Positions 29,519-36,267 of a stretch of DNA of 64,000 nt are shown here, in pieces. The notes beneath the pieces are model-generated. The model saw only the letters and a program-made list of their open reading frames with translations. It was not told where the DNA came from and did not search any database. The position numbers were made by a program, and so were the translations under genes. Position 1 is the stretch's first letter; each line of letters begins with the position of its first letter. The DNA comes from Candidatus Bacteroides merdavium (lineage in GTDB: Bacteria > Bacteroidota > Bacteroidia > Bacteroidales > Bacteroidaceae): contig DXAV01000083.1 of NCBI GenBank assembly GCA_019116805.1, positions 1-64,000 on the forward strand. The letters run 5' to 3'.

Positions 29519-29554
29519 AGAGAAGAGAACGCAACCAACGTTCTCTTCTTTTTT
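29519..29554 (+). terminator. Intrinsic terminator after the DUF3127-like gene
   Basis: AGAAGAGAACG...CGTTCTCTTCT + T-run. Confidence 0.75.
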
Positions 29555-29578
29555 ATACCCCACCCTCTTCTCCAAGAG

Positions 29579-29838: not shown

Positions 29839-31695
29839 ATGAAAAAGGTTTATTTATTCTCCCTGTTTCTGCCGGCCATTCTTATGGCCTGCCACGATGA
29901 ACAGGACTATTTTGAAACCATCAAAGAACAGCCACGAACCACTTTCCATCTCATGCAATCGGATTATGACGGTGAGACAACACCAGCCACCAAAAGCATC
30001 GCCACTCCATACGACCGTATGGAGCATTACATCATGGATGCCGATGGACAAGTTGTGACCAACATACGGACGGCATATAACCCTTCGACCTCGGAAATAG
30101 TTGCCGAAGGCTTGCATGAAGGCAGCTACGTCCTGCTGACATTAGGCATCAGAGGCGACTATACCTCCGACAAAGCGGACATACATCGCATCCAATCGGC
30201 TACAGACACATGGCTCACCTTCCCCGACACACTCGACCATCCGTTGAGAGCCGAATATTTCTATTCGCGCACGCCTTTTCATGTCAGCCTCGTCGAGATA
30301 GAAGACGGACGTCATGAAGTCGCTTCCCTGCAGCGACAAGTAGTCCTGCGTCGCATCGTAGGGCGGATAGACTTCAATTTTACGTACAACAACCAGTACG
30401 TCAGAACAGCTCTGACCGAGCAACAGTTGGAGCTTCAGGAAGTATTTTGCTACACCAGCTTCTCGGCAGACAGCACTTTCGACGGACGTAGCCAAGGATA
30501 CATGTCACCGATAGACTTGACCAACCAAAAGTCTTTCCTCTTGATGCCCACCGTAGCCTCAACCCAAGTAGACGGCAACATCAAAATGGAAACACGTCGC
30601 TACACAGGCAAATGTCTGAAACAGGAGTATCAATTCGAAAACATCATCGTCAGCCCCAACCGCCTGGAGCAGGTCAATACAAGAGTACAGCATCCTGACG
30701 ACCATTCTGGTACTTTATTCTTTACTCCTAAGGCATATGAAGAAGGGAAATTTTCAGAAATTCTGCAAGACGACGAACCGGCCGAAATATACGCCGACAA
30801 AAACCAGCGTTCTTTCCACACAGGCCATCCCCTGCAAGTGACGTTTACCGAAGAAGGCCAATTGCATGTACGCTTCTATTCGCCACGCAACGTGACTCAA
30901 ATGAAAATCATGGCACGTATCCCTGCCGCTGGAGAAGAATATATTGACATCGCCTATTTCGACACCATCCCTGCCTTTGCGGATATCTATGCCGACACGC
31001 CTCTTGCCTCACAAGCCTCTGTCTGTCAGACGGAATCAGGTAAATTGAAAGAAATCCCCATACTTACCACAGAAGAGCTGCAAAAGGCCGAATTCAAACT
31101 GGTATCGGAAGATTTTTATTGGCGAAAACTAAAAAAAATTGAACACGGATGGAATGTTAGCTTCGGCCTTTACGGAGGCGATCCTACGCGTGAAGACGGA
31201 GGACCCAGCGGTAACTGGATGGGCATCCGCCCTGTGCATTGCCGCGAAGTAGTAGCTGTACTGCTGAACTTCACCTATATGATTGACATGCCCGAGCATG
31301 AACAAATCCTAAAAGAGAATATTGACATCCTGTATGATGACAACAAACAGCCTGTCACCCCCGAAAAAGTGCTTGCCCAAATGCGTATTGAACGCAGCCT
31401 TGTCGTAGGCCTGGTTTATAGCAAACATGGTGTCGTAGGCCTTGGAGGCGGAAACGTATGGGGTGTCTATCAACAGGCCTATGTGCAACACTATACCAAT
31501 CCGTATTCGTGTGAGCTGATGTTTCATGAACTGGGACACGTCATGGGATACGGACATGCCAGTTCGTTCACTTACGGTTCTTGGGCGCAAAGCCTCATGA
31601 ACAATTTCTATGTATCCAACCTAGAAAAGTTCCCCATTGATTCACCCAAATACCTGAATACAGCAACCAACCCCAACCTGTACAAAAGTTTCTAA
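29839..31695 (+). CDS. Fimbrillin/Mfa2-like lipoprotein with C-terminal metzincin-type zinc motif
   Basis: Lipobox LMAC; HELGHVMGYGH (HExxHxxGxxH) at 31525-31557. Confidence 0.75.
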   Translation: MKKVYLFSLFLPAILMACHDEQDYFETIKEQPRTTFHLMQSDYDGETTPATKSIATPYDRMEHYIMDADGQVVTNIRTAYNPSTSEIVAEGLHEGSYVLLTLGIRGDYTSDKADIHRIQSATDTWLTFPDTLDHPLRAEYFYSRTPFHVSLVEIEDGRHEVASLQRQVVLRRIVGRIDFNFTYNNQYVRTALTEQQLELQEVFCYTSFSADSTFDGRSQGYMSPIDLTNQKSFLLMPTVASTQVDGNIKMETRRYTGKCLKQEYQFENIIVSPNRLEQVNTRVQHPDDHSGTLFFTPKAYEEGKFSEILQDDEPAEIYADKNQRSFHTGHPLQVTFTEEGQLHVRFYSPRNVTQMKIMARIPAAGEEYIDIAYFDTIPAFADIYADTPLASQASVCQTESGKLKEIPILTTEELQKAEFKLVSEDFYWRKLKKIEHGWNVSFGLYGGDPTREDGGPSGNWMGIRPVHCREVVAVLLNFTYMIDMPEHEQILKENIDILYDDNKQPVTPEKVLAQMRIERSLVVGLVYSKHGVVGLGGGNVWGVYQQAYVQHYTNPYSCELMFHELGHVMGYGHASSFTYGSWAQSLMNNFYVSNLEKFPIDSPKYLNTATNPNLYKSF

Positions 31696-31752: not shown

Positions 31753-33984
31753 ATGATATACAAACAAAAGAATATCCTACTGACTTTATTGCTGTCCCTC
31801 TTTTCGGCAAGCTGCACCAACCATACGGACGATGAAAATATGAATTTGCCAATCAAAAGGATAGACATACGAATCGCTCCTTATAACACAACAACCGAGA
31901 GTAAAGAAACTATCCCTCAAGAATGGAGTGCCTATCTATTTTAGGACAGCATTTTGAGCCATGTGTATCAAGGTGTCCCACAGGCAGACGGTACCATCCA
32001 ACTCAACCTAGATGCTAAAGACGGATCGCTCTACTTTCTTGCCGATGGAGAAGAGCTCCTCACCACGAAACCCGAAACTGGTAAAACTCGCTTGGAAGAT
32101 TTCAAGCAGACAAATACCCCGACAAACCAGGAAGCCTGCCCCAGCCTCTTCCTGTCCGGCTACATGGAGCTGACCTCGGATGCATCGCAAGAAACACTTA
32201 CCTTGGCCAGAGGTATGGCACGCATAGATGTCGAACTGGAAACAGACGACGTGGCAATAGACAGCATCCTAATGCACAACGTTGCCAACGCAGGATATCT
32301 CTTTAGTCAAAAGCAAATAACCACCTCGCCCGCAGCTAGCCTGACCACCCTGTACAGACACTACAAACAACCGTTGGTACAAAACGAAAGTCACGTATTC
32401 CACCTGTTCGAGCAATCTGGCAAAGACATCCGAGCCGAACTTTACATGCGGACAAAAGGCAGCAAACAGATTGTAAACGCCGTATTTCCGACTTTAATCA
32501 AGCGTAACACGCTCTACAAAATACGTGTGCGCGGAAGCGGCACTACCCTTTCGGCCATTGTCACCGAAGTATCTGACTGGGACACTGGAAGTGAAAACGA
32601 CACCAAACCATCCAATCGGATCTTGATAGACAAGGAACAGACCATCCTAAGCCCACAAGCACGCATCGGAGAGCAAGGCGACACATTATTTCTCCCTTAC
32701 ACGGCAAGTGACATCACACTGGCGCTTACCTCTGAAACGACTACCGAATACCAGGTAACAGGGTATGCAGATGGAGTTTCCGTGACCGAACTTTCCTCCA
32801 GTAAAAGCACGCTATATGGAAATATGTTTCGGATAACTTCCACACTCAGAGCCCCACAATCTCAAACTGAATACATTCACCTGGATGTAAAATCGCCTAC
32901 AGCCCCACAGACATACACAAGCACAATCGTCATAGTCATTGCACCCAACGGCAACCTTTTCAAAGGATTTGAGACATGGGATGCAAAGACCTACACCTGT
33001 AACTACAACCGATACATAGACGGTACTTTAGGCATTGTCCGACCAAGTACGGGCAAACAACTGAAAATAGAGTTTGAAAATGGCGAAGACCCTTGGATAA
33101 CTCTACGTGAAGCCGAAAACGAGAACAACGCCTATCGGGTAGTAGCCGGATGGCGCCCCAATGACCTCACCGCCAACGGCAGGGAACAACGTGCCAAGCT
33201 GGTTATCACGGATAGCGAAGGGGACAACAAAGAAGTTTATACACTCATCCGAAAGAACTGGGGACTCCCTGTCGTCGAAATAAACGGCCTGTGGTGGTGT
33301 AAATACAACCTTCGTGGAAACTCCCGTCTGTTCGAGGACCAAGTATCCATCGAAAAAGATCCCGCACGGATTGCCGGAGTGAGTGTAGCCGATTACTTGG
33401 ACACCTGTCCTGCAGAAGAATATTTTGGAATCTGGGGAGACGGTTATCAAGGAAGTAATACAACAGGCTTGAAACTGGAATATAAAAACGGACTCTTCCA
33501 ATACGCTAACTATGCGAGTAACATTTCCCAAAACATGTCGGCACTTCCGCACGAAAGTCATTGCCCGGATGGCTACCAAATTCCGTCGGTAGAGGACTTC
33601 AAAACCGTCTTGAGAAATGGCACCGGCATTTTTTATAGCCGTGAACAGACTGCCTATACATCAGAAAAAGGCCAACAAATGATTGGCATACCGCACAAAC
33701 GAACTGACATGTTCTATAATGGTGGTAAATTCTCTGAATTATACCACTATGAACTGACATCGGGTGAGCAAAGTATCACGCTTTATGGACCAGGATATCA
33801 ACCTGATGAAAATAGCGGATTAGTGAACAATTATGTCATTTATGCTACCTATACAGGAAATAGTAATGACAACTGGCTGATTGAAAAGAAAGCTGATAGA
33901 GGCGAATTCTGGCACGTGAGCAGAGCCAACAAACAGACAAGAATCAAACTCTGTATCAAAAAGCCCGTAGAATACATTTATTGA
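31753..33984 (+). pseudogene. Fimbrillin-like lipoprotein (743 aa if read through) interrupted by one in-frame TAG at 31942-31944
   Basis: ORFs 31753..31944 and 31954..33984 are in the same frame; lipobox SASC; strong similarity in pattern to 34036..36267. Confidence 0.8.
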
Positions 33985-34035: not shown

Positions 34036-36267
34036 ATGAAAAAACAAATACTCTTCATTTATTTTATATCGGCCATAGCAGGTATCTTTTTCGCTGCCTG
34101 CGACAACGAAACTCCCCAAGAGCCTATTCAGTTGTCAAACGCCATATTCATTACTCTTCACCCCAAAACATTCGTGGTCAACGGGACGAGTTCTCCTATT
34201 CAGGGGGAAAACCAGATAGAAAAGATCAATGCTTATCACTTTATAGACGGCCAGTTGAAACAATGTTTCACAAATCCACATTCTACCGCCGAGAACCAAT
34301 ATCAAATAGGCGTTACAGAAAAGAAAGGAACTCTCTACTTATTGGCAAATGTTCCTAAACTGGATAAAATTACAGAAGGCATGTACGAAGAAGATTTCCT
34401 ACAATTACCCACTGCAGAAGGTGACGCCTCTCCCAAAGCCATGAGCGGTATAATCCCAATAGGTACAGACGCGACATACACGATTGACATGAAACATGGA
34501 GCTGCACGTATAGATCTGCTCATTAAAACATCCAACGTAAAGGTGAAAAATATACGCATCAACCACGTAGCCCAACAAGGATACCTGTTTGCACAAGATG
34601 TTGTGCAAGACGTCCCCAATACATCTTTCACTACTATCAGTCAACAGTTCGATCCTTTTATCACCGAAAGCAAATTCGGCCTGTTTTATCTCCACGAACA
34701 AAACAATGAACAAATGACCGTCAACATTCTGACAGAGATAGATGGTATAGAAAAAACCTTGGAGAGCCAATTACCCGAAGTAATCAAAAGGAATCATGTC
34801 TATAGCCTTGAAATCACAGAATCAGAAAACACGAATCTCCATATCGAAATCAAAGAATGGGATAGTGAAGATGGTGTCATTGCTACCCCTGATGTCTCAA
34901 ATGTGATACGTATTGACCGTACCCGTTCACAAATACCTAGCTCAGTAAAGATTACGAGCGAAGAAGATTACGATATGGTCGAAATCCCATACACGCGCAC
35001 TGAACTACAAATCGCACTTAATGCACAAAGTGAAGTGGAACTAATTCCTGAAAGCAACTACCAGGACCTGACTATTGAAAAGAATCCTGATGGGACGTAT
35101 TTAGGTAACAACTTTCGTATCAGAACAGCCCTACGTCACCCTGGAGAAGAAATTCAGGACGCAATCTACAAAATAAAATTCAAGCACATGAACAATGCTT
35201 ATGAGGATAAAATTATATTTCGGCTAAAAGCCAATGAGAATCAATTTGACGGGCAATTGATCTTCAACGAAGACTTTGTGTGTCAATTCAACACCTACAT
35301 TGACAACGAGCTGGGCACACTGACACCCGCTCCAGGAAAGATAGTAAACGTGGAGGTGGAAGACCCACAGGCTCCATGGCTAAGAATTACGGAAAGTGAA
35401 GAAAAGAACGGAACCTTCCGTATTGTAGCCGGATGGCGCCCCAACGACCCAGAAGCCGACGGACGCCCCCAAAAAGCCAAACTCATCATCAGCGATCTTG
35501 ACGGAAACAACCGCGAGGAATACACAATCATCAGACGTAACTATGGCCTGCCCGTCACACTAATGAACGGTATCTACTGGTGCAAATACAATTCAATGGG
35601 TAATCCTAAAAATTTTGAAGAACAAATCTTGGTGCCTGATGATCCCGCAGTGACTGCTGGGAAGAGTGTTCTGGAATATTTGAATGAATGTTCTGCAATT
35701 GATTACATCAAGTTGTGGAAGTGGTCATACCAAGGGAACAAGCCCATGCAGGTAGTAGAAGGTGATCAGAACGTTGTACATGAGGGGTTCGTTACTGGAG
35801 GGATTTCCAATACAAACCAACTTGATCCCTATGCTTTGGCTCCTTCCGGTTACGAGATGCCCCACATTGAATATTATAATCGTATTTTCCAAGAATACTG
35901 GATGTATATTGACCGAAGTGGAGGCCCCTATAATGTTTATACTCCTTGGGAGAATAACCGACAAGTATTCGTTACTTCAGGAAGTCGATATGATCTGAAA
36001 TTCGGAACCATCACCCTCCCACAAACATTTCACTTTAAAGTGTTCAACAAAATAAACGGAGTGAAAAAGGAATCTGTCACGTTCTATGGTCCCGGTGCAC
36101 AATGGGGAGAAAGCGGCGTCAACCATAACAAAATACTTTTTGCTTGCTACTCGGCTAATGGGAACGGATGGTACAACGGAACATGGGGATTACAATTCAA
36201 TGGAGGGGGCCCCAAAGATACACGTATCGTTCGCTTTATCAAATCTCCAGTAGAATTTATTTACTAA
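34036..36267 (+). CDS. Fimbrillin-like lipoprotein, intact tandem paralog (743 aa)
   Basis: Lipobox FAAC; shared 'YRVVAGWRPNDxxADGRxQxAKLxIxDxxGxNxExYTxIRxNxGLPV', 'WCKYN', C-terminal 'KxPVEYIY'. Confidence 0.75.
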   Translation: MKKQILFIYFISAIAGIFFAACDNETPQEPIQLSNAIFITLHPKTFVVNGTSSPIQGENQIEKINAYHFIDGQLKQCFTNPHSTAENQYQIGVTEKKGTLYLLANVPKLDKITEGMYEEDFLQLPTAEGDASPKAMSGIIPIGTDATYTIDMKHGAARIDLLIKTSNVKVKNIRINHVAQQGYLFAQDVVQDVPNTSFTTISQQFDPFITESKFGLFYLHEQNNEQMTVNILTEIDGIEKTLESQLPEVIKRNHVYSLEITESENTNLHIEIKEWDSEDGVIATPDVSNVIRIDRTRSQIPSSVKITSEEDYDMVEIPYTRTELQIALNAQSEVELIPESNYQDLTIEKNPDGTYLGNNFRIRTALRHPGEEIQDAIYKIKFKHMNNAYEDKIIFRLKANENQFDGQLIFNEDFVCQFNTYIDNELGTLTPAPGKIVNVEVEDPQAPWLRITESEEKNGTFRIVAGWRPNDPEADGRPQKAKLIISDLDGNNREEYTIIRRNYGLPVTLMNGIYWCKYNSMGNPKNFEEQILVPDDPAVTAGKSVLEYLNECSAIDYIKLWKWSYQGNKPMQVVEGDQNVVHEGFVTGGISNTNQLDPYALAPSGYEMPHIEYYNRIFQEYWMYIDRSGGPYNVYTPWENNRQVFVTSGSRYDLKFGTITLPQTFHFKVFNKINGVKKESVTFYGPGAQWGESGVNHNKILFACYSANGNGWYNGTWGLQFNGGGPKDTRIVRFIKSPVEFIY

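Follow-up and report, generated by a model that had tools for sequence, protein, structure and literature searches.

A pilin-type lipoprotein bearing a metzincin-like zinc protease module in a conserved fimbrillin/FISUMP operon of Bacteroidales

Results

The locus and its three lipoprotein genes

The stretch of Candidatus Bacteroides merdavium DNA analysed here (contig DXAV01000083.1, 64,000 nucleotides, hereafter the window) holds three co-directional lipoprotein genes, spaced 57 and 51 bases apart, of which the metzincin gene is the first (Table 1). A terminator-like hairpin downstream of an ssb-like gene separates the latter from the three-gene cluster. No clear Bacteroides-type promoter was found upstream of the cluster. 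The promoter pattern TTTG-N17-23-TANNTTTG occurs six times on the two strands of the 64000-base window, 1.6 being expected, and none of these instances precedes the metzincin gene on the strand of that gene.

Table 1. Coordinates of the metzincin gene, its parts and the neighbouring features in the window.
Feature	Coordinates	Strand	Remarks
Stem-loop with T-run, terminator-like	29521..29556	+	agaagagaacg...cgttctcttcttttttat; stem in scan
Pilin-metzincin lipoprotein gene	29839..31695	+	618 aa; ORF call, full-length relatives
Lipoprotein signal peptide	29839..29892	+	lipobox LMAC, lipidated Cys18
FimB/Mfa2-type pilin-like domain	29935..30687	+	aa 33-283; AlphaFold2 model, Foldseek
β1-β2 loop, site of the type V pilin maturation cut	29959..30015	+	aa 41-59
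Metzincin-like module, beta-rich part then catalytic part	30706..31692	+	aa 290-618 (~330 aa); profile match
Zinc-binding motif HELGHVMGYGH	31525..31557	+	aa 563-573; end of helix 555-568
Met-turn equivalent SSFTYG	31561..31578	+	aa 575-580; Phe577 for Met, Tyr579 kept
Second lipoprotein gene, fimbrillin-like with weak FISUMP match	31753..33984	+	in-frame TAG 31942-31944
Third lipoprotein gene	34036..36267	+	743 aa; FimA/Mfa-type N-domain, Ig-like middle, FISUMP-related C-terminal part

An earlier note on this DNA, made from its letters, had described the first gene as a fimbrillin-like lipoprotein fused to a metzincin-type protease, standing first in a locus that also encodes two fimbrillin-like proteins. 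The open reading frame and its LMAC lipobox are exactly as described there. The fimbrillin-like character of the neighbours is borne out by the model of the third protein (AlphaFold2, pLDDT 87.4), whose N-terminal part matches 3r4r, 6jzk (FimA1), 5dhm (Mfa4) and 5nf4 (Mfa3) in Foldseek, BDI_3522 being matched as well. Within the family of this third protein, 9 of 43 members match the Fib_succ_major (FISUMP) model of Pfam, the best at 2.9e-21, and others match FimA/Mfa models; our literature search found no paper mentioning FISUMP. The second gene is broken in this assembly by an in-frame TAG, which may be a true nonsense mutation or a mistake made in assembly, while relatives hold intact copies.

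The cysteine of the 618-residue protein is followed by an acidic stretch, HDEQDYFE, which resembles the surface export signal described for Bacteroidales (PMC12632263). At least two Asp or Glu residues are present within the six positions after the cysteine in 40/54 relatives, compared with a background of 19%, and the lipoprotein is thus predicted to be exposed at the cell surface. Scanned alone, it reaches none of the curated Pfam or NCBIfam cut-offs and gives sub-threshold hints only.

A pilin-type fold in the N-terminal half

The AlphaFold2 model of the full-length protein, computed from the family alignment, is confident (pLDDT 89.8, pTM 0.81) and resolves two parts, in keeping with the separate fimbrillin-like and metzincin domains for which the earlier note had suggested structure prediction. 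Residues 33-283 are beta-rich. The best solved match of the full-length model in Foldseek is the anchor protein Mfa2 (5nfi, 2.7e-7, prob 1.00), followed by BT1062 (3gf8; an Mfa2 homologue), Mfa3 and other Bacteroidales adhesins (prob 1.00 each); the modest TM-scores reflect the use of the full-length model as query. When family members were scanned singly, PF08842 (Mfa2) was matched by 3/54 at E<=0.1, the best at 2.5e-5; the Pfam Mfa2 and FimA models give no match above cut-off in the window protein, so the pilin fold is present but lies outside the Pfam family. Homology also links the N-domain of the metzincin protein to those of the neighbouring lipoproteins (hhalign 95.4%, E=1.7e-8). At the level of the predicted structure, the FimB/Mfa2-type pilin fold of the N-terminal half is confirmed.

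A metzincin-like module in the C-terminal half

The motif HELGHVMGYGH, which the earlier note had recognized as an HExxHxxGxxH signature, is the only instance of that pattern across all six frames of the window, where composition predicts 0.02 by chance (about 1e-4 in this protein). H563, E564, H567, G570 and H573 are invariant in 54/54 aligned full-length relatives. In the model His563 and His567 lie near the end of the helix, so that the zinc residues are gathered on one active-site helix and the loop that follows it; both this clustering and the conservation of the three His and the Glu agree with a genuine zinc site.

With the window protein as query, phmmer against PDB chains retrieves 9tpb, which is named a metzincin, at 6.6e-10 over residues 307-579, and a profile of the 54 members retrieves it at 1.2e-35 over residues 315-582. 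The same profile matches HomA (9tpy) at 4.1e-8, chiefly in the active-site region, and weak Matrixin (M10) matches are found in 36/54 members, each scanned singly. Residues 290-440 are beta-rich in the model, and we assign them to the metzincin-like module because the 9tpb match spans residues 315-582. The 50 Foldseek matches listed for the full-length model, in which the N-domain dominates, are of pilin type only and include no metzincin, 9tpb being absent, and the evidence for the protease fold accordingly comes from the profile match and from secondary structure, the order of helices around the zinc motif and the turn being that expected for metzincins. Homology of the C-terminal module to zinc proteases is established by these profile comparisons, and from it we infer that the module is catalytic.

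The earlier note had named SLMNNFY as a possible Met-turn. This candidate is ruled out by the model and by the alignment: its M587 lies inside the C-terminal helix 581-593, which follows the turn at residues 575-580, and therefore cannot be the Met-turn. At the true position of the turn methionine, Phe is found in 43/54 members, Met in 10/54 and Ile in 1/54, with the following T-Y-G almost invariant and the Tyr conserved in 53/54. The Phe577 state, shared by the window protein and 42 relatives, marks a single clade on the domain tree (support 100/100). Relatives outside this Phe subclade have SxMTYG at the turn, the range becoming SxMTYG or NMTY when 9tpb is included. Met-type relatives occur, for instance, in Bacteroides oleiciplenus and B. 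faecichinchillae. Since the methionine is a defining feature of metzincins and is absent here, we name the module metzincin-like and not a strict metzincin.

The loss of this methionine, in the 43-member subclade and also in a group of Mfa_like_1-BACON proteins described below, raises the alternative that the module is a pseudoprotease that has lost its cutting activity and works as a binding domain in an adhesin. A dead enzyme, however, would not be expected to have kept the His and Glu residues in every one of the 54 sequences, the turn Tyr in 53 and the Gly over such a long divergence, and we regard this alternative as unlikely.

PDB entries 9tpb/9tpc ('Metallopeptidase, metzincin') and 9tpy/9tp2 ('HomA') are homologous to the C-terminal module and share with it the zinc motif and a Met-turn equivalent placed four residues past the third His; our literature search found no paper on 9tpb or HomA. 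Unlike the window protein, 9tpb has Met at the turn (NMTY), and its chain has no match to the pilin-like domain. Astacins and serralysins combine HExxHxxGxxH with a turn that reads SxMxY(G). The SxMxYG turn of the module, with its conserved Tyr, resembles theirs, whereas sequence matches to them are at chance level only, the spacing from the third His to the turn is very short, and Phe replaces Met in the subclade.

Distribution of the operon and of the module

Scanning a single genome for each species, we found 80 metzincin loci, which span Bacteroidaceae, Rikenellaceae, Barnesiellaceae, Tannerellaceae, Porphyromonadaceae, Prevotellaceae and others. A contig labelled Lachnospiraceae (L078) also carries the operon in a Bacteroidales-type version; this contig is probably mis-binned, and would otherwise point to cross-phylum transfer. 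Among 393 genomes spread over the order, the near-full-length protein was found in 8 (its own genome included), and the module without the rest of the protein in about seven more. Culturable carriers include Phocaeicola plebeius DSM 17135 and Bacteroides mediterraneensis. The FimB-like N-domain is present in 67/80 loci, and the remaining 13/80 have other architectures. Fimbrillin/FISUMP-type neighbours accompany the gene in 67/67 loci with the FimB-like N-domain, as against 0/13 of the other metzincin loci, so the operon is conserved with this protein; some loci seemed at first to lack neighbours, but this was due to faulty ORF calling in high-GC contigs and did not hold up under tblastn. About 25 loci carry an extra fimbrillin-only lipoprotein of about 300 residues. 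A divergent Crp/Fnr-type regulator gene lies upstream of the operon in 35/67 loci (e.g. L028:9286-9897 (-)), in Alistipes, Barnesiella, Cryptobacteroides and their kin, and is absent in the window.

The module is also found on a second scaffold, in Mfa_like_1 fimbrillin-BACON-metzincin fusions (L071-L074, L076 and L084). Downstream of the fusion gene, in all of these but L084, lies the gene for a large lipoprotein belonging to the same cluster, which in L072 matches Mfa2 and Fimbrillin_C and, by eye, has a likely beta-propeller C-terminus. On the domain tree the Mfa_like_1-BACON group is nested within the Phe clade, its exact position being moderately supported (82/84), from which we conclude that the module moved between pilin-type scaffolds, in line with a functional domain at the C-terminus that can be exchanged. 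Other members join the metzincin to a C-terminus that by eye resembles a beta-propeller (L086-L089, L092), and the module also occurs alone. A metzincin lipoprotein fused to or adjoining a beta-propeller-like lipoprotein is a recurring pair (L086:9878-13024, L088, L089, L091 and L092). With regard to spread by plasmids, one distant metzincin, annotated as hypothetical, was found on a Parabacteroides record amid glycosyltransferase and metabolic genes, with no sign of the operon.

The β1-β2 loop and the ordinary pilus operon

Type V stalk and tip subunits lose their lipid-bearing first strand through an Arg-specific cut in the β1-β2 loop, and the anchor, whose loop has no Arg site, retains β1 by a disulphide (PMC5789003). 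The protease reported to cut pilins in Bacteroides is a surface clostripain (PMC12632263). Arg occurs in the loop of 46/54 relatives of the metzincin protein (33.9 expected by composition) and the motif [TSA]R[SATQ] in that of 28/54; among the neighbouring lipoproteins loop Arg falls below expectation, at 14/43 (22.9 expected) and 1/22 (9.6 expected), and the motif is found in none of these 43 and 22 sequences, all these counts being inflated by the relatedness of the sequences. The loop of the window protein itself has Lys51 and no Arg, and there is no Cys between residues 18 and 204. Fimbrillin-only neighbours have a fairly conserved loop, YEGxGxxLxGENxI.

The same genome encodes a C11 clostripain homologue (2e-58) and an ordinary type V pilus operon that looks complete and contains no metzincin (C28; L108:3342-10988). 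As judged by eye, the stalk and accessory/tip subunits of the latter contain GSRV, TSRA, ARA and TRA in the loop region and its Mfa2 anchor contains no such site, while its last gene encodes a fimbrillin-like protein with a FISUMP-like C-terminal part (GWRLPTKEDF), which is consistent with FISUMP being a tip or adhesin part. By the yardstick of this operon, the loop sequences make the metzincin proteins look like processed subunits and their neighbours like unprocessed ones.

The earlier note had suggested that the protease might process, on site, the proteins encoded after it or host substrates. In the first case the metzincin would be a dedicated maturation enzyme, cleaving the fimbrillin-like lipoproteins beside it within their first strand and so enabling their assembly. 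Strict co-occurrence with fimbrillin/FISUMP proteins would fit such a role, as would the conservation of the loop in the fimbrillin-only members, and the absence of the usual Arg site from most neighbours might call for another protease. However, the genome already possesses a homologue of the reported Bacteroides pilin processor (PMC12632263), its ordinary pilus operon does without a metzincin, and the module also occurs alone or with beta-propellers, without such a pilin neighbour; together with the Arg-depleted loops of the neighbours, these observations make a maturation role quite unlikely.

Of the earlier assignment to the Mfa2/FimB-type anchors, the fold stands and the role lacks support. 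A true pilus anchor that also carries a protease would account for the ranking of Mfa2 and then BT1062 as the best fold matches and for the PF08842 matches in three members. Anchors, though, have a disulphide and no loop Arg (PMC5789003), and here the loop has no Cys and bears Arg in most members; moreover, the window cluster contains no ordinary stalk gene. An anchor function seems decidedly unlikely.

Discussion

The reading that we consider probable is that the protein is a surface lipoprotein in which a type V pilin-like scaffold presents a metzincin-like zinc endopeptidase, within a dedicated fimbrillin/FISUMP adhesin operon. The fusion joins two known kinds of domain, pilin and zinc protease, in a new combination. 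The reading draws on the lipobox with its acidic residues after the cysteine, the confident two-part model, the fold matches to Mfa2 and BT1062, the match to a solved metzincin, the invariant zinc ligands and Glu, the neighbours seen in 67/67 and 0/13 loci, the homologous N-domains, the FISUMP-like last gene of the ordinary operon and the recurrence of the module on a second scaffold. The distribution of loop Arg speaks against an anchor that matures the proteins next to it and in favour of a protease displayed or incorporated beside surface adhesins. Counted against this reading are the loss of the Met-turn methionine in the subclade, the curated Pfam and NCBIfam cut-offs that the window protein does not reach, the Lys in place of Arg in its cleavage loop, and the stop codon that breaks the second gene of the cluster.

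On this basis, the metzincin lipoprotein would be made together with fimbrillin/FISUMP lipoproteins acting as adhesins, which would keep an extracellular substrate, a protein or glycoprotein of host mucus, food or a neighbouring microbe, in place for the protease domain to cut. Action on host or other external substrates is possible, and is the option that we favour. The pilin domain may be kept as a lipid-anchored stand, or a clostripain-type protease may make the usual Arg-specific first-strand cut, allowing the domain to be built in as a tip-like subunit. Taken further, the second of these options would yield a pilus-type appendage in which the zinc protease is a clostripain-cut, incorporated tip or displayed subunit, so that adhesins and enzyme share a scaffold; we hold this possible but rather doubtful. 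Since no donor-strand partner for the metzincin protein was identified, pilus assembly is unproven.

The protein shares with the Mfa2/FimB anchors and BT1062 the fold of its N-terminal half and its lipoprotein nature, but differs from them in its C-terminal protease and in a first loop that has no Cys and, in most members of the family, contains Arg. With the type V tip proteins (Mfa3, Mfa5 and fimbrillin-FISUMP proteins) it has in common a pilin domain with an extra C-terminal functional domain and, in most relatives though not in the window protein itself, Arg in the first loop, although here the extra domain is a predicted zinc protease and not a ligand-binding one, and incorporation into a pilus is a proposal.

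The replacement of Met by Phe across a whole subclade bears on how essential the Met-turn methionine is in metzincins. Among the adhesin scaffolds known from gut Bacteroidales, type V pili and fimbrillin-like lipoproteins are the main ones. The pilin-metzincin protein, which many gut relatives share and which is always encoded next to pilus-like adhesin genes, probably represents a displayed enzyme of a kind that has no name yet, and offers a concrete candidate that reaches no curated Pfam or NCBIfam family. A conserved operon with a protease-bearing pilin-type subunit suggests that some of these adhesin scaffolds are enzymatic.
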